From Pseudomonas fluorescens (GTDB lineage Bacteria > Pseudomonadota > Gammaproteobacteria > Pseudomonadales > Pseudomonadaceae), in assembly GCF_018614655.1 (NCBI RefSeq), contig NZ_JAGGOG010000002.1, positions 62,001 through 126,000 of the forward strand: DNA of 64,000 bases, read 5' to 3'. Both the position numbers and the translations under genes were made by a program. The notes under the pieces were generated by a model, which saw only the letters and a list, made by a program, of their open reading frames with translations, was not told where the DNA came from and did no database searches. This document shows positions 35,946 through 51,315 of the stretch, piece by piece (the first letter of the stretch is position 1; each line of letters begins with the position of its first letter).

Positions 35946-36200
35946 ATGCAAACTCGTGACGATATTTTCAACACCTTGCGCGACGCCTTGGTGGAACTGT
36001 TTGAACTGGAACCTGAGCGCGTCACCCTCGACGCCAACCTGTACCAGGACCTGGAAATCGACAGCATCGACGCGGTCGACCTGATCGACCACATCAAGCG
36101 CCAGACCGGCAAGAAAATCGCCGCCGAAGAGTTCAAGACGGTGCGCACCGTGAACGACGTGGTCGAGGCGGTCTACCGTCTGGTCCAGCCGGCCGCATGA
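35946..36200 (+). CDS. apeF: Acyl carrier protein of the aryl polyene cluster (second)
   Basis: 84 residues with attachment Ser40 in D-L-E-I-D-S-I-D-A-V-D-L. Sequence differs strongly from the preceding carrier, so the two are likely specialised, as in characterised APE systems where one carries the aromatic starter or lipid step and the other the growing polyene. Overlaps the following membrane protein gene by 4 bp (ATGA). Confidence 0.9.
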   Translation: MQTRDDIFNTLRDALVELFELEPERVTLDANLYQDLEIDSIDAVDLIDHIKRQTGKKIAAEEFKTVRTVNDVVEAVYRLVQPAA

Positions 36201-36742
36201 GCCGACTGATCGGCCTTGGCCTGTTGCTGGCGGGGCTGCTGTACCCTTTTGCGGTGTATTTCGGCACGGAGCATTTTGCACCGTGGCAATTTGGCCTGCT
36301 GCTGGCCTGCCTATGGCTGCTGCGGGCGCTGACCGGAGCCCACAACCCGAGCGCACGCTGGATGGCGGCCGTGGCGGTGGTGTTTTGCCTGCTGCTGGCC
36401 TGGTTCGATAACCCGCAACTGTTGCGCTGGTACCCAAGCCTGGTCAGTGGCTTCATGCTGGCGCTGTTTGGCCTGAGCCTGAAATACGGCCCGCCGATGG
36501 TCGAGCGCCTGGCACGCATGACCGAGCCACAATTGCCCGACGTGGCGATTCGATATACCCGCCACGTCACCGTGGTCTGGAGTGTATTTTTTCTGTGTAA
36601 CGGCCTGCTCGCTGCCGCCCTCACTTTATGGGCGCCGCTGAGCTGGTGGATGTTGTACAACGGTCTGATCGCCTACGGGTTGATGGGGCTGTTGTTTGCC
36701 GTGGAATGGCTGGTACGACAAAGGATTCGAGGCCGCGTATGA
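36197..36742 (+). CDS. COG4648-type inner membrane protein of the aryl polyene cluster
   Basis: 181 residues with five or six hydrophobic segments (leading one L-I-G-L-G-L-L-L-A-G-L-L-Y-P-F-A-V-Y-F). This DUF occurs in aryl polyene clusters at the same place (ApeG) but its biochemical role is not known to me. Translationally coupled on both sides: ATGA with the carrier protein and ATGA with the ligase. Confidence 0.82.
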   Translation: MSRLIGLGLLLAGLLYPFAVYFGTEHFAPWQFGLLLACLWLLRALTGAHNPSARWMAAVAVVFCLLLAWFDNPQLLRWYPSLVSGFMLALFGLSLKYGPPMVERLARMTEPQLPDVAIRYTRHVTVVWSVFFLCNGLLAAALTLWAPLSWWMLYNGLIAYGLMGLLFAVEWLVRQRIRGRV

Positions 36743-38409
36743 ATTGGTTGAATCTTGAGCACTTGCTGCTTGAGCCTGTGGCGCAGCGCCCGGTTACCCG
36801 TGAGCCTGCGTTGAATCATGCCCAGCTGTGGGAGCAGTCCCTGAGTCTGGCGGCCGGGCTGCAAGCCCGGGGCATCCAGCGGCTGGCCGTGCATCTGGAA
36901 GATGCCGGCGTGTTGGCGATTGCGCTCCTGGGCGCCTGGCGCGCCGGGGTCAGCGTGCTGTTGCCGGCCGACCTGCAACCCCAAACCCGCCAGCGCTGGG
37001 CGGATGACGTGGACGGCTGGCTGACGGAAGCCGCCGATCTCGACGCGTTCTTCCAGGCACCACTGGGCGCCGCCGCCCTCGATCTGGATCACTGCCACCT
37101 GAGTCTGTGCACCTCCGGCTCCAGTGGCGAGCCCAAGCGCATCGACAAAACCCTGCGGCAACTGGCCAATGAAGTCCAGGCCCTGGAAACCCTGTGGGGC
37201 GCCGATCTCGGTGAAGCCTGCATCATCGGCAGCGTCGCCACCCAGCACATCTATGGCTTGCTGTTCCGCGTGCTGTGGCCGCTATGCGCTGGTCGAACTT
37301 TCGTGCGCCGCCAATTGGCCTTTCCCGAAGACATGCAGCGGGCCAGTCGCGAACAACCACACTTCGCCTGGATCGCCAGCCCGGCATTGCTCAAACGCAT
37401 GGGTGATAACCTCGACTGGCCGGCGTTGAGCGCGGTCAAGCGCGTGTTCTCCTCCGGCGGCGCTTTGCCGAGTGAAGCCGCCAGCAGCCTGCTGCAACGC
37501 TTGCAGCAATGGCCGACCGAAATCCTCGGCAGCTCGGAAACCGGCGGCATCGCCTGGCGTCAGGGCGAACAACCCTGGCAACCGTTTGCCGACGTGCAGT
37601 TGAGCCAGGACGCCGACGGTGCCTTGCGCATCGCCTCGCCGTACTTACCCAGCGGGCACATCGAACAGACCGCCGATGCGGCGAAGATCCACGCCGATGG
37701 GCGCTTCGAACTGCTGGGGCGCCTGGACCGGATCGTCAAACTGGAAGAAAAACGCATCTCACTGCCGATGCTGGAACAGGCGCTGATGGATCACCCTTGG
37801 GTCGCGGAACCCCGCCTCGGGGTGGTGCAAGAAAACCGCGCCTCCCTCGGCGCCCTGGTGGTGCTCAGCGCACCCGGCCTGCACGCCTTGCGCAATCAAG
37901 GCCGACGCAGCGTCACCCAGGCCCTGCGCCAGCATCTGAGCCAACACTGCGAAGCCCTGGCCCTGCCCCGTCGCTGGCGCCTGCTGCGACAGTTGCCGCT
38001 CAATACCCAAGGCAAACTGCCCCAGGCCGACGTCGAAGCGCTGCTGCTCGCACCTCGCCCCAAGGCACCCGAAGTGCTCGAAACAGCTGAAGCCAACGGT
38101 GAGTGGACCCTGCAACTGGCGATCCCGCCGGACCTTGCCTACTTCAGCGGCCACTTCCCGCAAACCCCGGTACTGCCGGGCGTCGTGCAGGTGGACTGGG
38201 CGCTGAACCTGGGCCAGCAATTGTTCGACCTACCGGGAAAATTCGCCGGAATGGAAGTACTCAAATTCCAGCAACTGGTACGCCCCGACGACCGGATTGA
38301 ACTGCACCTGCGCTTCGACCGCGAGCGTAGCAAGTTGTACTTCGCCTACCGCAACGACACCGCAGCCTGCTCCAGTGGCCGGATCGTGCTGGAGGTGGCA
38401 AGTGACTGA
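36739..38409 (+). CDS. AMP-dependent acyl/aryl ligase fused to a hot-dog dehydratase (ApeH-ApeI type)
   Basis: 556 residues. Residues 1-450 form an adenylate-forming ligase (T-S-G-S-S-G-E-P-K at 125-133; [18 protein letters not shown]) that would activate an aromatic acid and load it on a carrier protein. Residues about 455-556 form a FabA/FabZ-like hot-dog domain with catalytic His472 in [12 protein letters not shown]. In other APE systems the dehydratase subunit ApeI partners ApeP, encoded here at 48903. The start at 36739 overlaps the previous stop; the earlier start at 36628 is inside the upstream gene. Confidence 0.87.
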
Positions 38410-38451: not shown

Positions 38452-38581
38452 GTGGCGAGCGGGCTTGCCCGCGCTGGGCTGCGAAGCAGCCCTAAAACAG
38501 ACGACTGAGAGCTGCCTGAAAAACCGCAGAGCCAGGTTTGGGAGCACTTCGCACTCCAACGGGAGCAAGCTCCCTCGCCAC
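38452..38581. repeat. REPIN with mixed arms inside the aryl polyene operon
   Basis: Left arm GTGGCGAGCGGGCTTGCCCGC; right arm complement reads GTGGCGAGGGAGCTTGCTCCCG, so the two arms belong to different REP subtypes. Interior has CTGCGAAGCAG and GAGTGCGAAGTGC-type small palindromes. It fills most of the 206-bp gap between the ligase and the glycosyltransferase, the only large gap in the operon. Confidence 0.88.
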
Positions 38582-38615
38582 AGGGTTTGTCGGCAGCCTC
38601 AGGAGGCAATCGAGC

Positions 38616-39350
38616 ATGCATAACCCCTGCGCCCTGATTCCGGTGTACAACCACGAAGCCGCCGTACCTGCCGTGGTCCGCAGCCTGCTGGACAGCGGCT
38701 TGCCGTGCCTGTTGGTGGACGACGGCAGCAGCCCGGCCTGCGCGAAGGTCCTGGCCCAACTGGCAACCCTCGACAATGTGTCGCTGCTGACCCTGCCCAC
38801 CAATCAGGGCAAAGGTGGCGCCGTGATGACCGGTTTTCGCGAAGCGGCACGCCTGGGCTTCACCCATGCACTGCAAGTGGACGCGGACGGCCAGCACGAC
38901 CTGCGGGAAGTCAGCACCTTCCTTGACGCCTCGCGCAACCATCCCGAGGCGCTGATCTGCGGCTACCCGGAGTACGACCATAGCGTGCCCAAGGGCCGCC
39001 TGTATGCCCGCTACCTTACCCACGTGTGGGTGTGGATCAACAGCCTGTCGTTGCAGATTCGTGATTCGATGTGCGGCTTTCGCATCTACCCGCTCCCCCC
39101 CGTGCTGGCGTTGATGGACTCGGCCAACATCGGCAAACGTATGGACTTCGACTCGGACATTATCGTGCGCCTGTCGTGGCGCAACCAGCCTATGCGCTGG
39201 CTGCCCACCAAAGTGCATTACCCCGCCAATGGCCTGTCGCACTTTCGGATGGTCCACGACAACGTGCTGATCTCTTCCATGCACACCCGGTTGTTCTTCG
39301 GCATGCTGCTGCGCGCACCGATGATCCTCTGGCGGCGGTGGCAGGCATGA
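38616..39350 (+). CDS. Family 2 glycosyltransferase of the aryl polyene cluster
   Basis: 244 residues from the ATG at 38616 with AGGAGG nine bases upstream; an open frame from 38538 is REPIN-derived. GT-A fold motifs: L-I-P-V-Y-N-H-E, V-D-D-G-S-S and the metal-binding V-D-A-D-G-Q-H-D, then S-M-C-G-F-R-I-Y. Resembles polyprenol-phosphate or polyene glycosyltransferases; probably adds the sugar that links the polyene to its lipid anchor. Overlaps the next acyltransferase by ATGA. In E. coli these two activities are, I believe, one fused protein (ApeJ). Confidence 0.88.
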   Translation: MHNPCALIPVYNHEAAVPAVVRSLLDSGLPCLLVDDGSSPACAKVLAQLATLDNVSLLTLPTNQGKGGAVMTGFREAARLGFTHALQVDADGQHDLREVSTFLDASRNHPEALICGYPEYDHSVPKGRLYARYLTHVWVWINSLSLQIRDSMCGFRIYPLPPVLALMDSANIGKRMDFDSDIIVRLSWRNQPMRWLPTKVHYPANGLSHFRMVHDNVLISSMHTRLFFGMLLRAPMILWRRWQA

Positions 39351-40282
39351 ACGAAAGCACCCGGCATTGGGCCGACCGCCAGGAGCGCGGCAGTTTCTGG
39401 CTGATGAAGCTCACCGCATTGGGCGCCAAGTTCCTCGGCCGCCGAGTGTTGAGCCCGCTCCTGTATGGCATCGTTTGCTACTTCTTCCTGTTCGGCCGCA
39501 CCGCTCGCCAAAGCGCCTGGCAGTACCAGCAACGCCTGGCCGACTGGAGCGGTCGCGATGACTTGCGCCCCAGCCAGCGGCGGGTCTTCGGCCAGTTCAT
39601 GGCCTTCGCCGAGGCCCTGCTGGACAAACTTGACGTGTGGAACGGCAAACTGCGCCTGGAGCAGATCGAAATAGTCGACCCGGCGAAACTGCGCGATCAG
39701 TTGCGCGGCGAGCGTGGGCAAATGCTGGTGGGCGCACACCTGGGCAACCTGGAAGTGTGCCGGGCACTGGCAGAGCTGGGTGAGAAAGTCACCATGAACG
39801 TACTGGTGCACACCAAGCACGCCGAGCGTTTCAATCGCCTGCTGGGCGAAGCCGGGGCCAGTAATTTGCGGTTGATCCAGGTCAGCGAACTGGACCCGGC
39901 AACCATGCTGCTGCTCAGCCAGCGTCTGGACGAAGGCGAGTGGCTGGCGATTGCCGGTGACCGCGTACCGCTGCACGGCGGGCGCACGGTCCGGGTGGAT
40001 TTTCTCGGCCACGATGCGGCGTTTCCACAAGGCCCGTGGCTACTGGCCGGCCTGCTGAAATGCCCGGTCAACCTGTTGATGTGCCTGAAGAACGAAGGCC
40101 GATATCGCTTGATCATCGAGCCGTTCACCCAACTGATCGAATGGAAGCGCAGCAACCGCCAGCAAGTAATCGCCCTGTGGACCGCCCGCTACGCCGAGCG
40201 CCTGGGCCAGTTTTGCCTGCAAGCCCCCCAACAATGGTTCAACTTTTACCCTTTCTGGAAGACCGATGACGACGCATCTTGA
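39347..40282 (+). CDS. LpxL/HtrB-type lysophospholipid acyltransferase of the aryl polyene cluster
   Basis: 311 residues, one N-terminal membrane segment (about 32-50). Motifs of the lipid A-type acyltransferases: G-A-H-L-G-N-L-E-V (H-x4-E, catalytic) and A-G-D-R-V-P. Probably adds an acyl chain to the glycolipid part of the pigment. Starts at 39347, overlapping the glycosyltransferase stop; a start at 39071 lies inside that gene. Overlaps the ammonia lyase by 17 bp. Confidence 0.87.
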   Translation: MNESTRHWADRQERGSFWLMKLTALGAKFLGRRVLSPLLYGIVCYFFLFGRTARQSAWQYQQRLADWSGRDDLRPSQRRVFGQFMAFAEALLDKLDVWNGKLRLEQIEIVDPAKLRDQLRGERGQMLVGAHLGNLEVCRALAELGEKVTMNVLVHTKHAERFNRLLGEAGASNLRLIQVSELDPATMLLLSQRLDEGEWLAIAGDRVPLHGGRTVRVDFLGHDAAFPQGPWLLAGLLKCPVNLLMCLKNEGRYRLIIEPFTQLIEWKRSNRQQVIALWTARYAERLGQFCLQAPQQWFNFYPFWKTDDDAS

Positions 40283-41807
40283 GCCGGTAACCTTCGGCGA
40301 ACTCCCTCTGCGCATCGAAGACGTGCTGGCCTTGGCCAACCGCCAAGTGCCGACTCAGTTGCAAGGCGATGCCGAGTATCGCCAACGCATCGCCAAGGGC
40401 GCGCAGTTCCTTGACTCGCTGCTGGACAAGGAAGGTGTGATCTACGGCGTCACCACCGGTTATGGCGACTCCTGCGTGGTGGCCGTGCCATTGCAGCACG
40501 TCGAAGCGCTGCCGCGTCATCTCTACACTTTTCACGGTTGCGGCCTGGGCAAGCTGCTGGATGCACAAGCGACCCGCGCGGTGCTTGCGGCGCGTTTGCA
40601 GTCGCTGTGCCACGGCGTGTCGGGTGTGCGCGTGGAACTGCTGGAGCGCCTGCATGCCTTCCTCGAATTCGACGTGCTGCCACTGATCCCGGAAGAAGGC
40701 TCGGTGGGCGCCAGCGGTGATCTGACGCCGCTGTCCTATGTGGCAGCAACCTTGTCCGGCGAGCGCGAAGTAATGTTCCGCGGCGAGCGTCGCCAGGCCG
40801 CCGACGTACACCGCGAACTGGGTTGGGCCCCACTGGTACTGCGCCCCAAAGAGGCCCTTGCCTTGATGAATGGCACAGCGGTCATGACTGGCCTGGCGTG
40901 CCTGGCCTTCGCCCGCGCCGATTACCTGCTGCAACTGGCCACGCGCATCACGGCAATGAACGTGGTAGCGCTGCAAGGTAATCCGGAGCACTTCGACGAA
41001 CGCCTGTTCGCCGCCAAGCCGCACCCGGGGCAGATGCAAGTCGCCGCCTGGCTGCGCAAGGACCTGGCCATCGACGCGCCAACCGCGCCGCTGCATCGCC
41101 TGCAAGATCGCTATTCCCTGCGCTGCGCGCCCCACGTCCTTGGCGTGCTGGCCGACAGCCTGAACTGGCTGCGCTCGTTCATCGAGATCGAACTCAACAG
41201 CGCCAATGACAACCCGATCATCGACGCCGAAGCCGAACGCGTCCTGCACGGTGGGCATTTCTACGGCGGGCATATCGCCTTTGCCATGGACAGCCTCAAG
41301 ACCCTGGTGGCCAACGTCGCCGACCTGCTGGACCGGCAACTGGCGCTGCTGGTGGACGTGCGTTACAACCACGGGTTGCCGAGCAACCTGTCGGGTGCCC
41401 CGGCTGACCGGGCGATGATCAACCATGGCTTTAAAGCCGTGCAGATCGGCACCAGCGCCTGGACCGCCGAAGCCCTGAAAAACACCATGCCCGCCAGCGT
41501 GTTCTCGCGCTCAACCGAGTGTCATAACCAGGACAAGGTGAGCATGGGCACCATCGCCGCCCGCGACGCCATTCGTGTGCTGGAGCTGACCGAACAGGTC
41601 GCAGCCGCCACCTTGCTCGCCGCCAATCAAGGCGTGTGGCTGCGGGGCCAGGCCGAAGACGCTCGTCCCCTGCCTCCGGCCTTGGCCGCCATGCACGAAG
41701 AGCTCGCCAAGGACTTCCCGCCGGTCATCGAAGACCGCGCCCTGGAAGGCGAACTGCGCCTGTGCCTGCAACGCATCGCCGAGCAACACTGGAGGCTGCA
41801 TGCGTAG
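40266..41807 (+). CDS. MIO-type aromatic amino acid ammonia lyase (HAL/TAL family)
   Basis: Deaminates an aromatic amino acid to its trans-acrylic acid using the self-made MIO cofactor. 513 residues, typical of bacterial HAL/TAL. MIO triad A149-S150-G151 in G-S-V-G-A-S-G-D-L-T-P-L-S-Y. The substrate-selectivity loop reads L-Y-T-F-H-G-C-G-L-G, whose F-H pair is neither the S-H of histidine lyases nor the H-L of known tyrosine lyases. In a pigment cluster, tyrosine to 4-coumarate (aryl starter supply) is more plausible than histidine degradation. No hut genes are nearby. Confidence 0.87.
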   Translation: MTTHLEPVTFGELPLRIEDVLALANRQVPTQLQGDAEYRQRIAKGAQFLDSLLDKEGVIYGVTTGYGDSCVVAVPLQHVEALPRHLYTFHGCGLGKLLDAQATRAVLAARLQSLCHGVSGVRVELLERLHAFLEFDVLPLIPEEGSVGASGDLTPLSYVAATLSGEREVMFRGERRQAADVHRELGWAPLVLRPKEALALMNGTAVMTGLACLAFARADYLLQLATRITAMNVVALQGNPEHFDERLFAAKPHPGQMQVAAWLRKDLAIDAPTAPLHRLQDRYSLRCAPHVLGVLADSLNWLRSFIEIELNSANDNPIIDAEAERVLHGGHFYGGHIAFAMDSLKTLVANVADLLDRQLALLVDVRYNHGLPSNLSGAPADRAMINHGFKAVQIGTSAWTAEALKNTMPASVFSRSTECHNQDKVSMGTIAARDAIRVLELTEQVAAATLLAANQGVWLRGQAEDARPLPPALAAMHEELAKDFPPVIEDRALEGELRLCLQRIAEQHWRLHA

Positions 41808-42225
41808 CAAGGGCGTGCTGCACAGCGACACCGAAATCCTGGTGCCGTTTTTCGACGTCGACACCATGAATGTGGTGTGGCACGGCCATTACGTGAAGTA
41901 CCTGGAAGTGGCCCGCTGCGCCTTGCTGGACAAGATCGGCCACAACTACACGACGATGCTCGAATCGGGCTACGCCTGGCCGGTGATCGATATGCAGCTG
42001 CGTTATGTGCGCGGTGCGACCTTCGGCCAGACCATCAACGTGCGTGCCAGCCTGGTGGAGTGGGAGAACCGCTTGAAGGTCAATTACCTGATAACCGACC
42101 TGGCCAGCGGCGAGCGTCTGACCCGCGCCAGTACCGTGCAGGTGGCAGTAGAGATTGCCAATCGCGAAATGCAGCTGGCGTCGCCCAACGTATTCACAGA
42201 CGCTGTCGAAAGGGCTTTGAAATGA
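41800..42225 (+). CDS. 4-hydroxybenzoyl-CoA thioesterase-like hot-dog protein of the aryl polyene cluster
   Basis: 141 residues with the F-F-D-V-D-T-M-N-V-V-W-H-G-H-Y-V-K-Y-L-E motif of the YbgC/4HBT thioesterases, catalytic Asp in D-x-D-x2-N. Likely hydrolyses or transfers acyl-thioester intermediates. Overlaps the ammonia lyase by 8 bp and the LolA-like gene by ATGA (42222-42225). The sequence around its stop, GAAATGAGATC, is also the conserved flank of GTGGGAGC-class REPINs. Confidence 0.87.
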   Translation: MRSKGVLHSDTEILVPFFDVDTMNVVWHGHYVKYLEVARCALLDKIGHNYTTMLESGYAWPVIDMQLRYVRGATFGQTINVRASLVEWENRLKVNYLITDLASGERLTRASTVQVAVEIANREMQLASPNVFTDAVERALK

Positions 42226-42923
42226 GATCCAATGTGGGAGCGGCGGTGCGACGATTCGACTTGCTCGCGAAGGTCGTCAACAATAACGCGGGTCGCCTGA
42301 CACTTCGCGGCGCCCTCAGGTTTTTCGCGAGCAAGCTCGCTCCTGCAGTGTTCACGCTGCTTGGTTTTTCAGGTGTGGCCCAGGCGTTTGACCTGCAACA
42401 ACTCAGCGATCAGCTCGCCAAGCCTTCGGTGATTCACGGCAACTTCATCCAGGAAAAACACCTGCGTGCCTTGCCGCAACCACTGACCAGCAAGGGCACC
42501 TTTGTCCTGGCCAGGGATCATGGCCTGCTGTGGTTGCTCAAAACCCCGCTGCAACAGGACTACCGCATCAGTGCCCAAGGCATTGCCCGCCGGGACGCCA
42601 ACGGCTGGCAATTGCTCCCGAACAAGAGCGCCGGCGCCGAGCAGAATCGCTTGTTCCTCGCCGTATTACAGGGTGACAGCAGCGGCTTGCAGCGCGACTT
42701 CGAGCTGCAACTGCAAGGCGAGGCCAAACAATGGAAGTTGACCTTGATCCCGCGCTCGCTGCTGCTCAAGCAAGTGTTCACCCAGATCAATATCGACGGT
42801 GGTGAGCTGGTGCAAAAAATCGAACTACTGGAAACACAAGGCGACAGCACCGTACTGCGCATGCAAGACAGTACCAGCAGCCAACCGTTGAGCGACACGG
42901 AGCAGCACGATTTTGCCCAGTGA
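42222..42923 (+). CDS. LolA-like periplasmic carrier of the aryl polyene cluster with a REPIN-derived signal peptide
   Basis: Outer-membrane lipoprotein-carrier-like protein expected to ferry the lipid-linked polyene across the periplasm. 233 residues. The mature part starts about F56 (FDLQQLSDQL) after V-A-Q-A; conserved I-H-G-N-F-I-Q-E-K and the L-T-S-K-G-T-F-V-L motif support a LolA fold. Residues 5-42 are encoded by a REPIN (42234-42347), giving a 55-residue signal peptide with an unusually long, Arg/Asn-rich n-region. Possible alternative start GTG at 42348 would leave a 13-residue leader, too short. Whether the protein is exported efficiently is open. Confidence 0.8.
   Translation: MRSNVGAAVRRFDLLAKVVNNNAGRLTLRGALRFFASKLAPAVFTLLGFSGVAQAFDLQQLSDQLAKPSVIHGNFIQEKHLRALPQPLTSKGTFVLARDHGLLWLLKTPLQQDYRISAQGIARRDANGWQLLPNKSAGAEQNRLFLAVLQGDSSGLQRDFELQLQGEAKQWKLTLIPRSLLLKQVFTQINIDGGELVQKIELLETQGDSTVLRMQDSTSSQPLSDTEQHDFAQ
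42234..42347. repeat. REPIN located inside the LolA-like coding sequence
   Basis: Left arm GTGGGAGCGG, interrupted by 16 bp, then CTTGCTCGCGAA; right arm TTCGCGAGCAAGCTCGCTCC. The interior GGTCGTCAACAATAACGCGG resembles the usual spacer of this REPIN variant. Flank GAAATGAGATC at 42219-42229 provides the start codon. The frame is open across the whole element. Confidence 0.88.
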
Positions 42924-45225
42924 ACGCTGGTTGCCGCGCCTGTTCTTGATCCTGCTGGTGGCCGTATTGGCCCTGGCCGGCTGGCAATGGCGCCATGGCG
43001 CGCCGCTGTCGGCCAACCTGATGGAGCTGGTGCCGGGCACCGCGCCGGACGCCCTGGAACTGCGCGCCGAACAACGCATGCAGGAGCCGCTGAACCGCGA
43101 GATGTTGGTGCTGGTGGGGCACGCCGATCGCCAACAGGCGGTGGCCATGGCTCAGCAGTTGGGCGAACGCTGGCAAACCAGCGGCCTGTTTGAAAAGGTC
43201 CAATGGAACCTGCAAGCCGACCTGCCGGCCCTGCGTCAGCAGTTGCTGCAAGGACGGCTGGCGATGCTGTCCACCAAGGACCGCGAGCAACTGATCGAAC
43301 AACCTCAGGCGTTCATTCAACAACGTGCACAGGCGCTGTTCGACCCCTTTACCGGGTTCAGCCTGGTGCCGAGCCAGGATGATTGGCTAGGCCTGACCGG
43401 ACGCATCCAGAACAGCCAGCCGCAGCACGGTTCGGTGCAACTGGACATCGGCAGCGGCGCCTTGATTGCCGATGCCGACGGCAAGAGCTGGGTGCTGCTG
43501 CGCGCGCGCACCACCGGCAATGCCTTCGATATGAAACTGCCGCTGCAAGTGGCCGAATTACTCAACACCAGCCGGGAACAGGCCAGCCAGCAAGGCGTGC
43601 AATTGCTCGCGGCCAGCGGCTTGTTGTACGCGGCCAATGGTCAGCAGCAGGCCACCCGGGAAATCACCTGGGTCGGCGGCGGCGCGACCGCCGGGATTCT
43701 GTTGCTGCTGTTACTGGCATTCCGTCGTTGGCGGGTGTTGCTGGCGTTTGTGCCGGTGCTGGTGGGCATGCTGTTTGGTGCCGTGGCCTGCGTAGCGCTG
43801 TTCGGGCACATGCATGTGATGACCCTGGTGCTGGGCTCCAGCCTGATCGGTGTGGCCGTTGATTACCCGCTGCACTACCTGTCCAAGAGCTGGAGCATGA
43901 GCCCTTGGCGCAGTTGGCCGGCCTTGCGCCTGACCTTGCCGGGTTTAAGCCTGAGCCTGGCCACCAGTTGCATCGGCTATCTGGCATTGGCCTGGACACC
44001 GTTCCCGGCCCTGACCCAGATTGCGGTGTTCTCCGCCGCAGGACTGGTGGGGGCGTATCTGTCGGCGGTGTGCCTGCTGCCGGCCTTGCTCAAAGGCGTC
44101 GAACTGCGTCCGGCCCAGTGGCCGCTGCGTATCGCCGAGTTTTTGCTGAGCGTGCGTGAGTCCCTGCTCAAGCGCTTGCCGAGCCCGGTGTTGCTGGTGC
44201 TGGTATTGCTGTTTTGCGCCGGTGGCTTGTGGCACCTGAACAGCAAAAACGATATCCGCCAGTGGATCGGCGCGCCGCCGCAGTTGCTGCAGGAAGCCCA
44301 GGCCATTGCGCGCATTACCGGCTACCAGCCCACCAGTCAGTTCTTCCTCGTGCGGGCGGACAATCAGCAACAACTGCTGGAGCGTCAGGCCGCCTTGGGT
44401 CAGCGCCTGGACCAACTGGTGAACATGGACAAGCTCCAGGGTTATCTGGCGCTGAATCAATTGGTCAATCAACCCAGCGAACAGCAGCAAGTACGCGAAG
44501 CCCTGAGCAAACTGCCGCAGTTCTGGCAACCGCTGCTGGACCTCGGCGTACCGGCCAGTGCCCTGCAAGCCGAACTGACGCAACTGCAAGCCCTGCCCAC
44601 CGAAGACATCAATGCCGCCTTGAGCGGCCCGCTGGCCGAGCCTTGGCGCCTGCTGTGGCTGGGCCCGACCGACACCGGCGTGGCGGCGATGGTTAGCCTT
44701 CAAGGGTTGAATAACCCGGCGCTGCTGCGAATCCAGGCCCTGGATTTACCCGGTGTGCAATTGGTAGATCGCCTGGGTGACTTGAACCGGGTGTTCGCCG
44801 CCACCCAGATCAGCGCAGCCGAGTTGAAGCTGATGTCCTGTGCGCTGATCGTGCTGCTGTTGATTCTGCCTTTCGGCTTCGGTGGCGCCCTGCGTATCGT
44901 TGCCCTGCCGCTGCTCGCCGCCCTGTGCAGCCTGGCCAGCCTCGGTTGGCTAGGACAGCCGCTGACGTTGTTCAGCCTGTTCGGCCTGCTGCTGGTGACC
45001 GCTATCAGCGTCGACTACGCGATCCTGATGCGTGAGCAAATCGGCGGCGCCGCCGTCAGTCTGCTGGGCACCTTGCTGGCGGCCGTGACAACATGGTTGT
45101 CGTTCGGCCTGCTGGCGATTTCCAGCACTCCGGCGGTCAGTAATTTCGGCCTGTCGGTGAGCCTCGGGCTGGCCTTCAGCTTTATCCTGGCGCCATGGGC
45201 TGGCCGTCAGGGACATCCCTCATGA
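42913..45225 (+). CDS. MMPL/RND-type exporter of the aryl polyene cluster
   Basis: 770 residues, about 12 membrane segments in the RND arrangement: TM1 near the N-terminus, a periplasmic loop of about 210 residues, TM2-6, a second loop, TM8-12. MMPL-like sequence; G-S-S-L-I-G-V-A-V-D-Y and V-T-A-I-S-V-D-Y carry the paired intramembrane Asp of proton-driven MMPL exporters. Probably pulls the pigment-lipid from the inner membrane, working with the LolA-like protein. The TTG start at 42913 overlaps the preceding gene by 11 bp; exact start uncertain. Confidence 0.87.
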   Translation: MPSERWLPRLFLILLVAVLALAGWQWRHGAPLSANLMELVPGTAPDALELRAEQRMQEPLNREMLVLVGHADRQQAVAMAQQLGERWQTSGLFEKVQWNLQADLPALRQQLLQGRLAMLSTKDREQLIEQPQAFIQQRAQALFDPFTGFSLVPSQDDWLGLTGRIQNSQPQHGSVQLDIGSGALIADADGKSWVLLRARTTGNAFDMKLPLQVAELLNTSREQASQQGVQLLAASGLLYAANGQQQATREITWVGGGATAGILLLLLLAFRRWRVLLAFVPVLVGMLFGAVACVALFGHMHVMTLVLGSSLIGVAVDYPLHYLSKSWSMSPWRSWPALRLTLPGLSLSLATSCIGYLALAWTPFPALTQIAVFSAAGLVGAYLSAVCLLPALLKGVELRPAQWPLRIAEFLLSVRESLLKRLPSPVLLVLVLLFCAGGLWHLNSKNDIRQWIGAPPQLLQEAQAIARITGYQPTSQFFLVRADNQQQLLERQAALGQRLDQLVNMDKLQGYLALNQLVNQPSEQQQVREALSKLPQFWQPLLDLGVPASALQAELTQLQALPTEDINAALSGPLAEPWRLLWLGPTDTGVAAMVSLQGLNNPALLRIQALDLPGVQLVDRLGDLNRVFAATQISAAELKLMSCALIVLLLILPFGFGGALRIVALPLLAALCSLASLGWLGQPLTLFSLFGLLLVTAISVDYAILMREQIGGAAVSLLGTLLAAVTTWLSFGLLAISSTPAVSNFGLSVSLGLAFSFILAPWAGRQGHPS

Positions 45226-45258: not shown

Positions 45259-46506
45259 GTGCCCACAGTTGAAATGGAACGTCGCCAGGTCGTGGTGATT
45301 GGGGCCGGCCCGTCCGGCGCCATTGCTGCCGCCCTGCTCAAACGTAACGGGCATGATGTCTTGATCATCGAACGCCAGTACTTCCCGCGCTTCTCCATCG
45401 GCGAAAGCCTGCTGTCCCACTGCATCGACTTCATCGAAGAGGCCGGGATGCTGGAGGCAGTCAACGCGGCGGGTTTCCAGGTAAAAACCGGCGCCGCGTT
45501 TACCTGGGGCGAGCGCCACAGTGCCTTCGATTTCGGCGATACTTTCAGCAACGGCAAACCCACCACGTTCCAGGTACAGCGTGCTGACTTCGACAAGTTG
45601 CTGGCCGACCAGGCTGAGTTGCAAGGGGTGGAAATCCGCTACGGCGAGACCATCATCGGCATCGACTTTGCTGCGGGCAGTCGCTACCTGCATGTCCGTC
45701 GGGAGAACGGCAGCGAGTATCACCTCAAGGCCGGTTTCGTGCTCGACGCCAGCGGCTATGGCCGCGTGTTGCCGCGCCTGCTGGACCTGGAAGCAGCCTC
45801 GAATTTCCCGTTGCGCCAAGCGGTGTTTACCCACATCGAAGACCACATCGAACACCCGGGATTTGATCGCACCAAGATCCTCATCACCACTCACCCGACA
45901 AAGCGCGATATCTGGTTCTGGACCATCCCGTTCAGCAACGGGCGCTGTTCAGTGGGCGTGGTCGCCGCCAGGGAGCATTTCGACAGTCGCGATACCGACC
46001 TCGATGCCTGCTTGCGCAGCTTTATCGATGAAACGCCGAGCCTGTCTACAGTGCTGGAAAATGCTGTCTGGGATACCCCAGCGCGCACCATCGGCGGCTA
46101 CTCGGCCAACGTCAAAACCTTGCACGGCCCGGGCTTCGCGCTGCTGGGCAATGCCGCGGAATTTCTCGACCCGGTGTTCTCTTCAGGCGTGACCATTGCC
46201 ATGCGCTCGGCGAGCATGGCGGCAGGCCTGTTGCATCGTCAGTTGCAGGGTGAACCTATCGACTGGCAAACCCAGTTCGCCGAGCCGTTGAAGCGCGGTG
46301 TCGACACCTTCCGCTGCTACGTCGAAGGCTGGTACGCCGGGACTTTCCAGGATGTGATTTTCCATCCCGACAGCTCCCCGGCGATTCGACGGATGATCAG
46401 TTCGATCCTCGCCGGTTACGCCTGGGATGAGCGTAATCCGTTTGTCAGCGAACCAAAGCGGCGGTTACGGATGTTGTCGGAAATCTGTGCAGGGGATGCG
46501 GTGTGA
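45259..46506 (+). CDS. FAD-dependent halogenase-like oxidoreductase of the aryl polyene cluster
   Basis: 415 residues from a GTG with AAGGAG five bases upstream. FAD-binding G-A-G-P-S-G near residue 16; F-P-R-F-S-I-G-E-S-L-L from residue 42; Lys76 in Q-V-K-T-G-A-A-F-T-W-G, near the position of the catalytic Lys79 of PrnA/RebH; and W-F-W-T-I-P at 219-224, the W-x-W-x-I-P signature of flavin-dependent halogenases. These together suggest halogenation of the aryl ring or polyene, but a hydroxylase/oxidoreductase role cannot be excluded. GTGA overlap with the methyltransferase downstream. A 33-bp gap precedes it. Confidence 0.8.
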   Translation: MPTVEMERRQVVVIGAGPSGAIAAALLKRNGHDVLIIERQYFPRFSIGESLLSHCIDFIEEAGMLEAVNAAGFQVKTGAAFTWGERHSAFDFGDTFSNGKPTTFQVQRADFDKLLADQAELQGVEIRYGETIIGIDFAAGSRYLHVRRENGSEYHLKAGFVLDASGYGRVLPRLLDLEAASNFPLRQAVFTHIEDHIEHPGFDRTKILITTHPTKRDIWFWTIPFSNGRCSVGVVAAREHFDSRDTDLDACLRSFIDETPSLSTVLENAVWDTPARTIGGYSANVKTLHGPGFALLGNAAEFLDPVFSSGVTIAMRSASMAAGLLHRQLQGEPIDWQTQFAEPLKRGVDTFRCYVEGWYAGTFQDVIFHPDSSPAIRRMISSILAGYAWDERNPFVSEPKRRLRMLSEICAGDAV

Positions 46507-47252
46507 GCAGTTCTTCTTATCAAAAAGAGTACTTGAGCAAAAACTACGTCGAGGAGACCAAGTTCGGCTTCTGGTTCCTGCGCAGCCACACCTGGCAGCA
46601 TCACGTGTTGCGGGTGGCCATCAATGACCTGCGCAGCCTGTTCAGCGATCCCTTGCCGGCCGCTCCGGTGCTGCTGGATGCCGGCTGTGGCCAGGGCAAG
46701 TCGTTCCAGTATTTGCAGCAGGTGTTTGCACCCCAGCGTTTGATCGGCCTGGACGCCGACCCCCACAGCCTGGAGTTGAGCCGCGTCGAAGCCGAGCGCC
46801 AAGGCCTGGCCATCGAGTTAATCGGCAGCGACTGCGCCACCCTCAACGTCGCCGACGCGAGTGTTGATATCCTGTTCTGCCACCAGACCTTCCATCATCT
46901 GGTGGAACAGCAGCGAGCGCTGACGGAGTTCTATCGGGTGCTCAAGCCCGGTGGTTATCTGCTGTTCGCCGAGTCCACCGAGGCCTATATCGATACCTGG
47001 GTGATTCGCTGGCTGTTCCGGCATCCCATGCACGTGCAAAAAAGCGCTGAAGAATACCTGGAGATGATTCGTGAACAGGGCTTCGAATTCGGCCCGCAGA
47101 ATGTTTCGTACCCGTACTTGTGGTGGAGCCGCTCCGCGGATTTCGGCTTGCTGGAGCGTTGGGGCCTGCGTCGCCCGAAACCCTTTGGCGAACGGGAAGA
47201 AACCCTGGTCAATGTGGTCGCCCGCAAACCCCTGGCAGGTGCCGGGCAATGA
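46503..47252 (+). CDS. SAM-dependent methyltransferase of the aryl polyene cluster
   Basis: 249 residues, class I methyltransferase: motif I L-L-D-A-G-C-G-Q-G-K-S, acidic L-D-A-D-P, and F-Y-R-V-L-K-P-G-G-Y-L-L. GTG start overlapping the preceding stop. Probably O-methylates the aromatic head, a common decoration in aryl polyenes; target is inferred. Overlaps the lipoprotein gene by ATGA. Confidence 0.86.
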   Translation: MSSSSYQKEYLSKNYVEETKFGFWFLRSHTWQHHVLRVAINDLRSLFSDPLPAAPVLLDAGCGQGKSFQYLQQVFAPQRLIGLDADPHSLELSRVEAERQGLAIELIGSDCATLNVADASVDILFCHQTFHHLVEQQRALTEFYRVLKPGGYLLFAESTEAYIDTWVIRWLFRHPMHVQKSAEEYLEMIREQGFEFGPQNVSYPYLWWSRSADFGLLERWGLRRPKPFGEREETLVNVVARKPLAGAGQ

Positions 47253-47731
47253 TCCGCATGCTACTGATGGGTTGTATGTTGGTGCTGAGCGCCTGCGCCA
47301 GCCAGCCACCGTTGCCAACCCATAACCCGACCTTGAGCTTGCCGCTGCAATTGCATGTGGTGCGTGAGCAGGACGGCCAGCGCCAGGACTGGCTGCTGGT
47401 GATCCAGCATGAAGACGGCGGGATCCGCTGGTCAATGATGGACCCGCTGGGCATTCCCCTGGCCCGGCAGAAGTTGATCAACGGTGCCTGGCAGGCTGAT
47501 GGCCTGCTGCCGCCCAACTCTCAGGCTCGGGAGCTGTTTGCTGCCTTGCTGTTTGCCCTGACGTCGGCGGATGAAGTCTCCACGCTGTATCCTGGCACTC
47601 AGGAAATAGACCTGACACGCACCCTCCCGTCCCGCTGGCAGATCACTTATCACTCCTCCCTGGTGTTTCGCGTGAACCTGCCTGGGCAACACCTGATCTA
47701 CCACATCAGCCCGCTTGAGACCGCCCGATGA
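47249..47731 (+). CDS. DUF3261-type lipoprotein of the aryl polyene cluster
   Basis: 160 residues with a short signal sequence and lipobox L-S-A-C (lipidated Cys16). The rest resembles a DUF3261 beta-rich, LolB-like domain, which fits an outer membrane acceptor for a lipid-linked polyene delivered by the LolA-like carrier. Start 47249 overlaps the methyltransferase stop; end overlaps the ketosynthase by 4 bp. Confidence 0.83.
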   Translation: MIRMLLMGCMLVLSACASQPPLPTHNPTLSLPLQLHVVREQDGQRQDWLLVIQHEDGGIRWSMMDPLGIPLARQKLINGAWQADGLLPPNSQARELFAALLFALTSADEVSTLYPGTQEIDLTRTLPSRWQITYHSSLVFRVNLPGQHLIYHISPLETAR

Positions 47732-48906
47732 CTGTCTACCTCAACGCCCTCGGGGTCATCTGTGCCCTGGGTCGCGACAAGCGTGAAGTCAGCCGCAACC
47801 TGTTTGCCGGTGACTGCTCAGGCATGCGCGATGAAGGCGGCTGGGTGCCGGAACGCGTGTTGCCGGTGGCGGGCGTACACGGTGAGCTGGCGGCAGTCCC
47901 GTCTGGGCTGGAACAACAAAGCAGCCGCAATAACCAGCTGTTGCTGGAAGCAGCATTGCAGATCCATGACCAGATCCAGCACGCGATCCAGACCTTTGGC
48001 GCGTCCCGGATCGGCATCATCCTCGGCACCAGCACCTCGGGGATCGATGAAGCCAGCCGCGGCATCGCCCATTTCCTGGGCAACCAACAGTTCCCCAGCG
48101 ACTATAACTACCAGCAACAGGAACTCAGCGCCCCGGCCACCTTTCTCGCCGACTGGCTGCAAACCAGCGGCCCGGCCTATGTGATTTCCACCGCTTGCAC
48201 CTCCGGCGCACGTGCGTTGATGAGCGCCCAGCGCCTGCTGGACCTTGGCATGTGCGACGCAGTGCTATGCGGCGGTGTCGACAGCCTGTGCAAGCTGACC
48301 CTCAATGGATTCACGTCCCTGGAGGCGGTCAGCCAGCAACGCTGCAATCCGTTTTCGGTCAATCGCAATGGCATCAACATCGGTGAAGCCGCTGCGCTGT
48401 TTCTCATGAGCAAAGTACCGGGCCCCATCGCCCTGCTAGGCAGCGGCGCCAGTTGCGACGCCCACCATATTTCCGCCCCGGACCCGACCGGCAAAGGCGC
48501 GCTGCTGGCGATGGGCAAGGCCTTGGCCAGCGCCCACCTGGCGCCTGAACAGATCGGCTACCTGAACCTGCACGGCACTGCGACCCAGCACAACGACGCC
48601 ATGGAAAGCTTGGCGGTGGCCAGCCTGTTTCCAAACGGCGTGGCCTGTTCATCGACCAAACCCATGACCGGTCACACGCTGGGGGCGGCCGGTGCGCTGG
48701 AAGCCGCGTTCTGCTGGCTGAGCCTGTCCGCTGACAACACCGCCCATGCCTTGCCGCCTCATGTCTGGGATGGCCAGGCCGACCCAGCGCTGCCGGCCTT
48801 GCAGTGGGTCACACCCGCACACACCCTGGAAAAACGCTGCCTGATGAGCAATTCCTTCGCCTTTGGCGGCAACAACGTCAGCCTGATTATCGGAGACGCC
48901 CCATGA
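47728..48906 (+). CDS. apeO: Beta-ketoacyl-ACP synthase (ApeO type)
   Basis: 392 residues. Catalytic Cys157 in T-A-C-T-S-G-A-R-A-L, His in L-H-G-T-A-T-Q-H-N-D and His in K-P-M-T-G-H-T-L-G-A-A-G complete the KAS I/II Cys-His-His triad. Condenses malonyl-ACP with the growing polyene; expected partner is the ApeC-like factor at 34179. Starts inside the lipoprotein stop and overlaps the dehydratase by 4 bp. Confidence 0.9.
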   Translation: MTVYLNALGVICALGRDKREVSRNLFAGDCSGMRDEGGWVPERVLPVAGVHGELAAVPSGLEQQSSRNNQLLLEAALQIHDQIQHAIQTFGASRIGIILGTSTSGIDEASRGIAHFLGNQQFPSDYNYQQQELSAPATFLADWLQTSGPAYVISTACTSGARALMSAQRLLDLGMCDAVLCGGVDSLCKLTLNGFTSLEAVSQQRCNPFSVNRNGINIGEAAALFLMSKVPGPIALLGSGASCDAHHISAPDPTGKGALLAMGKALASAHLAPEQIGYLNLHGTATQHNDAMESLAVASLFPNGVACSSTKPMTGHTLGAAGALEAAFCWLSLSADNTAHALPPHVWDGQADPALPALQWVTPAHTLEKRCLMSNSFAFGGNNVSLIIGDAP

Positions 48907-49364
48907 TCGCTTGGCCGCTCGCCGAACTGCTGCCCCATGCCGGTGACATGATTCTGATCGATCAGGTCCTGGCGTTCGATGAAGAGCAGATTCATACCCG
49001 CCTCACCGTCAAACCCGACGGCCTGTTCAACCGTCCCGACGGTAGCTTGCCGGCCTGGGTCGGCATTGAGTTGATGGCGCAAAGTGTCGCCGCCTACGCC
49101 GGTTGCCATGCGCGTCAGAAGGGTGAGGCGGTGGCGCTGGGATTCCTGTTGGGCACCCGCAAATATGAATGCAATGTCGAGCACTTTCCCGCCGGCACCG
49201 AATTGACCATTCACGGCCTGCGCTCCCTGGAAGACGACAATGGCATGGGTGTGTTCGAATGCCACCTCACCGGGGACGGCATCCAGGCCAATGCACGCTT
49301 GAACGTATTTCGACCGCCCCATGCGGCCAATTATTTAGATGAATCGAAGGACACAACGCCATGA
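48903..49364 (+). CDS. apeP: 3-hydroxyacyl-ACP dehydratase-like hot-dog protein (ApeP type)
   Basis: 153 residues, hot-dog fold: L-L-P-H-A-G-D-M-I-L-I-D (His of the P-H-x-x-x-M/I region) and a G-I-E-L-M-A-Q-S-V-A central helix. Expected to act with the dehydratase domain fused to the ligase (residue 455 onward of 36739-38409) to form the double bonds of the polyene. Overlaps neighbours by 4 bp each. Confidence 0.88.
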   Translation: MIAWPLAELLPHAGDMILIDQVLAFDEEQIHTRLTVKPDGLFNRPDGSLPAWVGIELMAQSVAAYAGCHARQKGEAVALGFLLGTRKYECNVEHFPAGTELTIHGLRSLEDDNGMGVFECHLTGDGIQANARLNVFRPPHAANYLDESKDTTP

Positions 49365-50089
49365 CTGAATCCGTTCTGGTTACCGGCTCCAGCCGTGGTA
49401 TCGGTCGCGCCATTGCCCTGCGCCTGGCCCAGGCCGGCCATGACATCGTGCTGCATTGCCGCAGCGGTCGTGCCGAAGCGGATGCCGTGCAAGCTGAAGT
49501 TGAAGCACTGGGCCGCAAGGCTCGGGTGTTGCAATTCGACGTTTCGGATCGCGCCGCCTGCAAGCAAATCCTCGAAGCCGACGTAGAAACACATGGCGCC
49601 TACTACGGTGTGGTGCTCAATGCCGGGTTGACCCGCGACGGCGCGTTTCCAGCACTGTCGGAAGAGGACTGGGACGTGGTGATGCGCACCAACCTCGACG
49701 GTTTCTACAACGTGCTGCACCCGGTGATGATGCCGATGATTCGTCGTCGTGCTGCCGGACGGATAGTCTGCATTACCTCGGTTTCCGGGTTGATCGGCAA
49801 TCGCGGCCAGGTCAACTACAGTGCTTCCAAGGCCGGTTTGATCGGCGCAGCCAAGGCCCTGGCTATCGAGCTGGGCAAGCGCAAGATCACCGTCAACTGC
49901 GTGGCTCCCGGGCTGATCGACACGGCGATGCTGGATGAAAACGTACCGGTGGAAGAACTGATGAAGATGATCCCGGCCCAACGCATGGGCACCCCGGAAG
50001 AAGTCGCCGGCGCAGTGAATTTCCTGATGTCGGCAGAAGCCGGCTACATCACTCGCCAGGTGCTGGCCGTCAATGGAGGCCTGTGTTGA
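49361..50089 (+). CDS. apeQ: 3-oxoacyl-ACP reductase, FabG-like (ApeQ type)
   Basis: 242 residues, short-chain dehydrogenase: NADPH motif V-T-G-S-S-R-G-I-G, N-A-G, catalytic Ser in I-T-S-V-S-G-L-I-G-N-R-G-Q and Y-S-A-S-K. Reduces each beta-keto group during polyene extension. It is not the primary fatty acid FabG, judged from its position inside the pigment operon. Stop overlaps the next start by one base (TGATG). Confidence 0.92.
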   Translation: MTESVLVTGSSRGIGRAIALRLAQAGHDIVLHCRSGRAEADAVQAEVEALGRKARVLQFDVSDRAACKQILEADVETHGAYYGVVLNAGLTRDGAFPALSEEDWDVVMRTNLDGFYNVLHPVMMPMIRRRAAGRIVCITSVSGLIGNRGQVNYSASKAGLIGAAKALAIELGKRKITVNCVAPGLIDTAMLDENVPVEELMKMIPAQRMGTPEEVAGAVNFLMSAEAGYITRQVLAVNGGLC

Positions 50090-51315
50090 TGAAGCGCGTG
50101 GTTGTCACCGGCATGGCCGGCATCACCTCACTGGGTAGCGATTGGGCCAGCATCGCCGCTAACTTTCGCGCTAACCGCAGCGGCATCCGGCGCATGGATG
50201 AGTGGGATCGTTTCAGCGAATTGAATACACGGTTGGCCGGGCCTATCGACGATTTCGTCGTGCCGGCCCACTGGACCCGCAAGCAACTGCGCAGCATGGG
50301 CCGGGTGTCGCGCCTGGCGGTGTGGGCCGCTGAACAGGCGTTGCAGGATGCCGGTTTGCTCGGTGACGAATCGATCAAGGATGGGCGCATGGGCGTCGCC
50401 TGCGGTTCGTCCACCGGCAGCACTGACGAGATCAAGGCCTTCGGCAATATGCTGCTGAACTCGGTGGCCGAGGGGCTGAATGCCAACTCCTACGTGCGGA
50501 TGATGCCTCACACCACCGCCGCCAATATCAGCATCTTCTTCGGCCTTACCGGGCGGCTGATCCCAACGTCCAGCGCCTGCACCAGCGGCAGCCAGGGCAT
50601 CGGCTATGCCTATGAAGCCATCAAGTTCGGCCGCCTGCCGCTGATGCTCGCCGGCGGCGCCGAAGAACTGTGCCCCACCGAGGCCATGGTGTTCGATGCG
50701 CTGTACGCCACCAGCCTGAAAAACGACGCCCCGCAAACCAGCCCGCGCCCCTACGACAGTGGCCGTGATGGCCTGGTGATCGGCGAAGGCGGCGGCATGC
50801 TGGTGCTCGAAGAGCTGGAACACGCGTTGGCCCGTGGTGCACATATCCACGCAGAGATCGTCGGTTTCGGCAGCAATGCCGACGGCCAACACACCACCCG
50901 CCCCGAACAGACCACCATGCGCCGGGCCATGGAACTGGCCCTGGAAGACGCAGGCCTTACGCCGGCGGCCATCGGCTACGTCAACGGCCACGGCACCGCT
51001 ACTGAACAGGGCGATATCGCCGAAACCCAGGCCACCAGCAGCCTGTTCGGCAGCCGCATGCCCATCAGCTCGCAGAAGAGCTTCCTCGGCCATACCTTGG
51101 GTGCCTGCGGCGCGTTGGAATCCTGGTTCAGTATTGAGATGATGAACAGCAACCAGTACGTGCACACCTTCAACCTCGACGAGGTCGACCCGCGTTGCGG
51201 CGAACTGGATTACCTGCGCAGCGAGTTCCGCGAGCTGCACAACGACTACGTGATGAACAACAACTTTGCCTTTGGCGGCGTCAACACCTCGCTGATCTTT
51301 CGCCGCTGGCCGTAA
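50089..51315 (+). CDS. apeR: Second beta-ketoacyl-ACP synthase of the aryl polyene cluster (ApeR type)
   Basis: 408 residues from the ATG at 50089 (MKRVVVTGMAGI). Cys164 in S-S-A-C-T-S-G-S-Q-G, His in V-N-G-H-G-T-A-T-E-Q-G-D and His in K-S-F-L-G-H-T-L-G-A-C-G give a complete KAS triad. As a separate homodimeric KS it probably performs the first condensation on the aryl starter, as described for ApeR. Ends with N-N-N-F-A-F-G-G-V-N-T-S, typical of the family. Confidence 0.9.
   Translation: MKRVVVTGMAGITSLGSDWASIAANFRANRSGIRRMDEWDRFSELNTRLAGPIDDFVVPAHWTRKQLRSMGRVSRLAVWAAEQALQDAGLLGDESIKDGRMGVACGSSTGSTDEIKAFGNMLLNSVAEGLNANSYVRMMPHTTAANISIFFGLTGRLIPTSSACTSGSQGIGYAYEAIKFGRLPLMLAGGAEELCPTEAMVFDALYATSLKNDAPQTSPRPYDSGRDGLVIGEGGGMLVLEELEHALARGAHIHAEIVGFGSNADGQHTTRPEQTTMRRAMELALEDAGLTPAAIGYVNGHGTATEQGDIAETQATSSLFGSRMPISSQKSFLGHTLGACGALESWFSIEMMNSNQYVHTFNLDEVDPRCGELDYLRSEFRELHNDYVMNNNFAFGGVNTSLIFRRWP

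Follow-up and report, generated by a model that had tools for sequence, protein, structure and literature searches.

A halogenase-like flavoprotein of ammonia-lyase-type aryl polyene gene clusters in Pseudomonas fluorescens and its clade in Pseudomonadota and Bacteroidota

The apeA-R cluster of Escherichia coli directs the synthesis of an aryl polyene (APE) with a core of ligase, dehydratases, ketosynthases, a LolA-like protein and an exporter, and the 18 genes described for it in PMC8253772 include neither a flavoprotein nor an ammonia-lyase. The flxA-flxY cluster of Chitinophaga pinensis relies on an ammonia-lyase for its start and carries a methyltransferase of the FlxJ family adjoining a flavoprotein, and its pigment, a flexirubin, is described as an ester with a dialkylresorcinol (PMC3992019). 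Xanthomonadins are reported to carry 0-2 bromines, and the pigment of a Lysobacter cluster described without a halogenase gene shows no bromine isotope ions (PMC3691225). Moreover, 'a probable halogenase' is mentioned near the APE genes of Acetobacteraceae (PMC8776678), and an APE cluster and a 'tryptophan halogenase (prnA)' are listed as separate entries for one Pseudoalteromonas strain (PMC11573776). Here, a 64,000-nucleotide stretch of the 6.11-Mb genome of Pseudomonas fluorescens (contig NZ_JAGGOG010000002.1, positions 62,001 to 126,000), referred to as the window, was analyzed with respect to the gene at 45259-46506, which lies inside an APE operon, between the exporter and a methyltransferase, and encodes a flavoprotein of a clade termed clade I in the following. 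An initial annotation made from the sequence had described this gene as encoding a flavin-dependent halogenase-like enzyme of a pigment operon and had stated that E. coli-type APE products are not halogenated; the gene set described for E. coli is in agreement with the latter statement.

The gene is an uninterrupted forward-strand frame of 415 residues with a GTG start that is immediately preceded by the sequence AAGGAG, and its stop shares four bases with the GTG of the next gene (46503). The deduced protein matches the Pfam family Trp_halogenase with 88.5 bits at a cut-off of 21, and the gene and its sequence features are as follows (FAD, flavin adenine dinucleotide).

45259..46506, + strand: clade I flavin-dependent halogenase-like enzyme, 415 residues, GTG start (frame, Pfam, motifs, tree, PDB profile, fold)
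45301..45318, + strand: GxGxxG FAD-binding motif, GAGPSG, residues 15-20 (sequence)
45382..45414, + strand: FPRFSIGESLL, residues 42-52 (sequence)
45484..45486, + strand: codon of Lys76, the counterpart in alignments of the lysine in CndH, CmlS, Mpy16 and FasV (8zop)
45913..45930, + strand: WxWxIP motif, WFWTIP, residues 219-224 (sequence)
46162..46188, + strand: Fx.Px.Sx.G tunnel motif, FLDPVFSSG, residues 302-310 (sequence; role of the motif as given in PMC12871659)

The three signatures on which the initial annotation had relied, W219-F-W-T-I-P224, Lys76 and F42-P-R-F-S-I-G-E-S-L-L52, are found exactly at these residues, and FLDPVFSSG (302-310) is a further halogenase motif that its list did not contain. 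The markers of the flavin-dependent halogenases of the PF04820 superfamily, i.e. GxGxxG, WxWxI(P), Fx.Px.Sx.G and the lysine, are consequently all present. The WxWxI(P) motif has been reported to prevent monooxygenation (PMC12871659), and this motif and Fx.Px.Sx.G are jointly used to recognise flavin-dependent halogenases (PMC12871659, PMC12645471). The loop PVFSSGV of the protein is the same in CndH and nearly the same in Mpy16 and PltA (PIFSSGV).

A search of the PDB with a profile of 26 rows yielded 15 sequences at E <=1e-20, namely 3nix, followed by 13 halogenases and by a geranylgeranyl-type reductase at 80 bits. The structure of the protein was predicted with a mean predicted local distance difference test score (pLDDT) of 91, and the model resembled 3nix of Cytophaga hutchinsonii most closely (Z 58.6, root mean square deviation 1.4 over 405 residues), followed by ChlB4, PltA, Mpy16, Bmp2 and FasV (Z 45.7-46.7), by RadH and CndH (Z 41) and by CmlS (Z 37.4), with p-hydroxybenzoate hydroxylase at 37.3 or below. 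The order of Foldseek matches likewise placed the halogenases mostly ahead of the reductase and the hydroxylases. The protein 3nix is 43% identical to the window enzyme over the whole length and belongs to the same clade. PltA, Mpy16, ChlB4 and Bmp2, which we take to be carrier-protein pyrrole halogenases, are stand-alone enzymes that match the model with Z values of about 46 over 385-402 residues; the C-terminal helices are included in the match, since the alignment extends to residue 415 for PltA, Mpy16 and ChlB4 and to residue 409 for Bmp2. The same lysine and motifs are present in Mpy16, PltA and ChlB4, but the four proteins are only 24-28% identical to the window enzyme, a different substrate is expected, and PltA, Mpy16 and ChlB4 occupy a separate clade of the tree described below. 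Of the characterised halogenases that were compared, CndH, CmlS and FasV showed the greatest pairwise identity (30-33% over the shared part); these proteins form a separate branch, and CndH, CmlS and 8zop can be aligned in sequence as far as residue 329-340.

Since QhpG, a tryptophan dihydroxylase, is a hydroxylase with a similar fold (PMC7876137), membership in this group was considered as well. The NCBIfam model of QhpG matched the window protein with 122.8 bits, clearly under the cut-off of 240, the identity to QhpG amounts to 19%, and the tree places the window enzyme on the halogenase side. All six QhpG rows carry P or Q at the position of the lysine and WxWxAR instead of WxWxIP, and an assignment to QhpG was therefore rejected. 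The sequence comparisons and the structural model thus argue that the protein belongs among the flavin-dependent halogenases and away from QhpG. The initial annotation had named a position among FAD hydroxylases as evidence against its proposal and structure modelling as a check; the tree and the PDB profile point to the opposite side, and the halogenases of nearest fold, ChlB4, PltA, Mpy16 and Bmp2, match the model near full length. Its description of a halogenase-type flavoprotein in a pigment operon is accordingly backed by motifs, Pfam, profile, tree, model and the surrounding APE genes.

A search of 369 genomes of the class yielded 57 matches at E <=1e-25, comprising 17 (the own genome included) with at least 43% identity and 40 with approximately 27-36% identity. 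In a tree of 70 rows, the window enzyme and 3nix were found in clade I (37 rows, support 100/100), and a second group of polyene halogenases sharing the superfamily and the motifs formed clade II (21 rows, support 99/99), the members of which are 26-31% identical to the window enzyme over aligned columns. The branch order among clade I, clade II, CndH/CmlS/8zop and PltA/Mpy16/ChlB4 came out without resolution; long branches were flagged for L197, CmlS, 8zop and QhpG joining L194/L195, and RadH, CtcP, PltM, Bmp2, PrnA, ArcA and any named Xanthomonas enzyme lie outside the tree.

The gene neighbourhoods of the two clades were compared in loci of more than 8 kb that could be classed, i.e. 94 loci of clade I (76 from one search and 18 others) and 16 of clade II, with L110, L194, L195 and L197 left unclassed. 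These counts include near-duplicates, and the loci were cut about 10 kb on each side or at contig ends, so that the numbers indicate a tendency and not independent events; a lone ketosynthase match can moreover represent a fatty-acid gene. A ketosynthase or exporter match was present in 85 of the 94 clade I loci and an ammonia-lyase in 62, whereas a chorismatase was found in none of them. The near neighbour of the window, L033, is among these chorismatase-free loci, and the window cluster itself contains an ammonia-lyase. The clade II loci, in contrast, contain a chorismatase in 10 of 16 cases, the query among them, and an ammonia-lyase in a single case; one clade II neighbour gene matches the FkbO/Hyg5-type chorismatase family with 224 bits, below the cut-off of 325. 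Accordingly, clade I is common to ammonia-lyase-type APE clusters and to the flexirubin clusters of Bacteroidota, and the enzymes encoded beside XanB2-type chorismatases form, as judged from sequence, the separate clade II.

The methyltransferase gene beside the clade I gene is of the window type in 20 of the 94 loci and of the FlxJ type in 17, all of them adjacent. It was not found in two Pseudomonas loci, L049 and L050, that keep the flavoprotein gene, and a methyltransferase is likewise missing from the gene list of the annotated Pseudoalteromonas cluster. An obligatory pair of flavoprotein and methyltransferase was therefore rejected, and the two proteins are regarded as companions.

Two further loci touch the distribution of the clades. 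L182 combines a clade II halogenase gene with an ammonia-lyase gene and APE-type genes and yielded no chorismatase match; a natural swap of the halogenase clade between pathway types is possible. A single replicon of Caballeronia insecticola, NC_021289.1, encodes both a clade I-like enzyme (54.5%) and a clade II-like enzyme (48.7%), with the genes at 645119-646270 and 766026-767366, and the two polyene pathways may coexist there.

The initial annotation had further linked the window enzyme to the xanthomonadins and deduced that the cluster may make a halogenated polyene. If the enzyme were an orthologue of the xanthomonadin brominase, a xanthomonadin-like brominated pigment would be expected, an explanation that overlaps with halogenation of the APE and that we consider quite improbable. 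It has in its favour that both kinds of enzyme are flavin halogenases by motif and are encoded in polyene clusters, and that the nine key residues specified below recur in all 22 clade II rows from the class search (two of them, L189 and L196, assigned by score and not by the tree). This part of the comparison stands, but the window enzyme lies outside the clade of the XanB2 neighbours and its cluster is devoid of a chorismatase gene; both clades are strongly supported, the identity across them is low, and the loci differ in chorismatase (0/94 versus 10/16) and ammonia-lyase (62/94 versus 1/16) as given above. One Xanthomonas cluster is described with a 'reductase/halogenase' gene, XanB1, next to XanB2 and with a second halogenase-labelled gene elsewhere in the cluster (PMC3838355), and the gene list of Azoarcus shows the 'halogenase' gene arcA adjoining arcB, which specifies a XanB2-type enzyme (PMC3949708). 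Judged solely from the gene neighbourhood, the comparison of XanB2 neighbours hence speaks for clade II; the second xan gene, located away from XanB2 and not placed in the tree, is a point that the xanthomonadin explanation retains. No Xanthomonas was present among the best 40 of 102 plasmid-record matches to the clade II query, where the best hosts were Azospirillum, Caballeronia, Variovorax and Roseomonas.

The nine key residues Lys76, W219, W221, I223, P224, F302, P305, S308 and G310 are identical in all 19 rows of the same genus (18 relatives plus the window), in all of another 16 clade I rows obtained in the class search (L148 among them starts near residue 73) and in all 14 aligned Chitinophaga rows, the gene having been fetched for 14 of the 77 genomes. 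The searches behind these counts do not require Lys76, and the counts leave out the two-frame gene of the Pseudomonas genome G022; a separate count of 97/97 is partly circular, as one of its two search patterns includes Lys76. The ratio of nonsynonymous to synonymous substitution rates (dN/dS) ranged from 0.05 to 0.13 versus nine named Pseudomonas orthologues, with dS reaching about 1.3 in more distant pairs, and the closest named relative returned was Pseudomonas spelaei (95% at the 415-residue protein). In a set of 25 Pseudomonas genomes (the own and 24 others), the flavoprotein (best E <1e-100) and the exporter were present in the same 20 genomes and absent from the same five. These data clearly indicate that the gene is under purifying selection and that its frame and motifs are not due to chance.

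A decaying or unused gene that is kept by linkage would be the opposite explanation, and it appears extremely unlikely to us in view of the low dN/dS values, the intact motifs in Pseudomonas and the retention of the flavoprotein even where the methyltransferase was not found (L049, L050). Two broken copies can be cited for it. In G022 (C11:94041-95284; L022, L031), which is one of the 20 Pseudomonas genomes with both genes, the flavoprotein gene is split over two frames and the exporter gene is intact, which reflects either a recent loss or an assembly error. The clade I copy of Neisseria gonorrhoeae (L114:10001-11123; NZ_CP119140.1, labelled as a plasmid, 2.17 Mb) consists of two pieces. The polyene genes sought were all absent within 10 kb of it, and its neighbours are a DEAD-box helicase gene, a Dus-like gene and ybeY; it appears to be the remnant of a pigment cluster that was lost.

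With respect to flexirubins, the genus that includes Chitinophaga japonensis was searched in 79 genomes, and 77 of them contained a clade I gene (E <=3e-74); of the remaining two, G124 contains the gene in fragments and G149 a remote match only. The genome G112 (9.1 Mb), presumably that of C. pinensis DSM 2588, encodes FlxA (861 bits, cut-off 700) and a FlxJ-family methyltransferase (550 bits, just below the cut-off of 560) directly before a clade I gene that is intact, has the lysine and the motifs and specifies a protein 38% identical to the window enzyme. Three matches to the window protein were obtained in G112. Two of them are listed and comprise the flexirubin-cluster gene and, at 1.0 Mb, a remote match (25%, E 5e-12).

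Several points weigh against a halogenating role of clade I. The flexirubin of C. pinensis is reported as C43H54O4, without halogen, from LB medium (lysogeny broth) with 5 g/l NaCl (PMC3992019), so that an intact clade I gene in the presumed C. pinensis genome coincides with a halogen-free main pigment although chloride was present. Feeding of ring-d4 tyrosine is reported to add +3 to this flexirubin, so that one ring hydrogen is replaced, which was explained by methylation (PMC3992019). Arcuflavin (C41H52O4), obtained from Azoarcus in LB medium, is likewise described as a nonbrominated aryl heptaene despite the designation of arcA as a halogenase gene (PMC3949708), ArcA being assigned to clade II by gene position only. 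The fold of the halogenase CmlS is no nearer to the model than that of the hydroxylases, and because of this tie (Z 37.4 and 37.3) the modelled fold by itself is not decisive between the two reactions, a shared fold not being equivalent to a shared reaction. Furthermore, 3nix was deposited by structural genomics as 'flavoprotein/dehydrogenase', nine of the 94 clade I loci are devoid of any pathway gene sought, and no biochemistry of clade I was found in the open-licence literature, nor was a paper assigning a function to clade I in APE or flexirubin clusters found in open-licence full texts. In short, the sequence speaks for a halogenase, and the sole chemistry tied to a clade I gene is without halogen. 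A halogen-free product of a halide-supplied producer had also been named by the initial annotation as contrary evidence; such a product is on record for the cousin C. pinensis and not for the window strain.

A halogenase-fold enzyme that carries out another oxidation in polyene or flexirubin biosynthesis, with a final pigment free of halogen, is the main rival explanation, possible if rather doubtful. The reaction could be a dehydrogenation, the hydroxylation of some minor congener or a transient halogenation whose halogen is removed at a later stage. It agrees with the nearly general occurrence of clade I in Chitinophaga together with the halogen-free pigment of C. pinensis, and QhpG provides a precedent for a halogenase-like flavoprotein that is a hydroxylase (PMC7876137). 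The strict conservation of the lysine and of WxWxIP, both of which are missing in QhpG, argues against it. Moreover, E. coli makes its APE without such an enzyme (PMC8253772), and the chain itself therefore does not need the flavoprotein. The formula C43H54O4 leaves by our own count no room for an added oxygen, since the ester, the phenol and one free resorcinol hydroxyl account for all of them.

Beyond the gene, its motifs and catalytic lysine, the fold, the operon, the purifying selection and the co-occurrence with the polyene pathway, all of which were established here, we favour as the probable function that of a stand-alone clade I halogenase acting on the APE headgroup, as suggested by its sequence, which would need bromide, another condition or another substrate pool. 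In favour of this function, known flexirubins are stated to differ in ring methylation and/or chlorination (PMC3992019), and clade I is encoded in the flexirubin clusters. In the proposed reaction, reduced FAD supplied by a reductase elsewhere in the cell would yield hypohalous acid with O2 and halide, and the hypohalous acid would pass the tunnel of WxWxIP and Fx.Px.Sx.G to Lys76. The 4-hydroxyphenyl head would then be halogenated ortho to the hydroxyl on the carrier-bound or finished polyene, and the adjoining methyltransferase may work on the same ring. A carrier-bound substrate is plausible by analogy with the carrier-protein halogenases that match over the full length. A possible preference for bromide would explain why the enzyme is intact although pigments produced in chloride media lack halogen. 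In its widest form, this idea implies that APEs and flexirubins, which are some of the most widely distributed pigments of bacteria, undergo bromination in nature by a conserved clade I halogenase with a preference for bromide and that this was missed as the pigments were purified from chloride-rich media without added bromide; we put it forward tentatively and regard it as unlikely. The alternative, equally bold, would be a step other than halogenation carried out by this intact catalytic set.

The operon around the gene contains ketosynthases, ApeI- and ApeP-type dehydratases, a ketoreductase, a ligase, carrier proteins, a LolA-like protein and an exporter, the family match of the latter remaining below the cut-off. 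It shares the ammonia-lyase and the methyltransferase adjoining a clade I flavoprotein gene with flxA-flxY, the methyltransferase being of another family. The following features were assigned (AMP, adenosine monophosphate; SAM, S-adenosylmethionine).

34179..34901, + strand: ketosynthase-like protein, position of the ApeC chain length factor (PF13723)
34877..35689, + strand: acyltransferase, ApeD-like (PF01553)
35583..35936, + strand: acyl carrier protein 1, frame probably beginning ahead of the true start (PF00550)
35946..36200, + strand: acyl carrier protein 2 (NF003757 above cut-off; PF00550)
36197..36742, + strand: membrane protein, ApeG position (position; weak IspA-like matches below cut-off)
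36628..38409, + strand: AMP ligase fused to an ApeI-like dehydratase (PF00501, PF22818)
38538..39350, + strand: glycosyltransferase family 2 (PF00535)
39071..40282, + strand: LpxL-type acyltransferase, true start probably further in (PF03279)
40266..41807, + strand: aromatic amino acid ammonia-lyase (PF00221, 532 bits; best NCBIfam matches, tyrosine/histidine lyases, below cut-off)
41800..42225, + strand: thioesterase (PF13279)
41877..42923, + strand: LolA-like carrier (PF03548, matching within the second half of the frame)
42913..45225, + strand: MMPL/RND-type exporter (PF03176, 18.5 bits, below the cut-off of 20.5; co-occurrence with the halogenase gene in the same 20/25 Pseudomonas genomes)
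46503..47252, + strand: SAM-dependent methyltransferase (PF08241), start overlapping the halogenase stop by 4 bases
47120..47731, + strand: position of the ApeN/DUF3261 outer-membrane protein, frame beginning upstream of the likely true start (position only, without Pfam match)
47728..48906, + strand: ketosynthase
48804..49364, + strand: ApeP-like dehydratase (PF22817)
49361..50089, + strand: ketoreductase
50083..51315, + strand: ketosynthase, ApeR position

The ammonia-lyase at 40266..41807 would be a tyrosine ammonia-lyase that makes the 4-coumarate starter, as far as can be deduced from its sequence. No flavin reductase was noticed among the annotated genes of the cluster, the remaining genome not having been searched. 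Many Pseudomonas loci offer space between the exporter and the flavoprotein genes for one more gene, absent from the window (L041:8854-10011 and L049:8854-10011; a gap of similar size in L038-L051); the gene of L041 encodes a hydrophobic membrane-type protein of 386 residues without a Pfam match or a convincing PDB match. Downstream of the cluster, long frames on opposite strands cover the same stretch (57052-61548, - strand, 1498 codons; 57205-61155, + strand, 1316 codons). Outside Pseudomonas, the Cytophaga loci L070 and L072 contain clade I genes close to 3nix with the sought polyene genes absent within 10 kb, which distinguishes them from the window; among the neighbours of L070 are genes resembling those of GcvT and of 2-phosphosulfolactate phosphatase.

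Existing annotations of clade I members read either NAD(P)/FAD-dependent oxidoreductase or tryptophan 7-halogenase. Clade I represents a variant of a known halogenase kind for which a crystal structure is available, and its novelty would lie in its chemistry. In both Pseudomonadota and Bacteroidota, the gene accompanies polyene pigments whose synthesis starts with an ammonia-lyase. If the halogenating function is true, common outer-membrane pigments would be halogenated and the ring chlorination of flexirubins would gain a gene. If the non-halogenating function is true, clade I would provide a counterexample to the practice of calling a halogenase from WxWxIP, the lysine and the tunnel motif, a rule of the kind now used in mining pipelines (PMC12871659).

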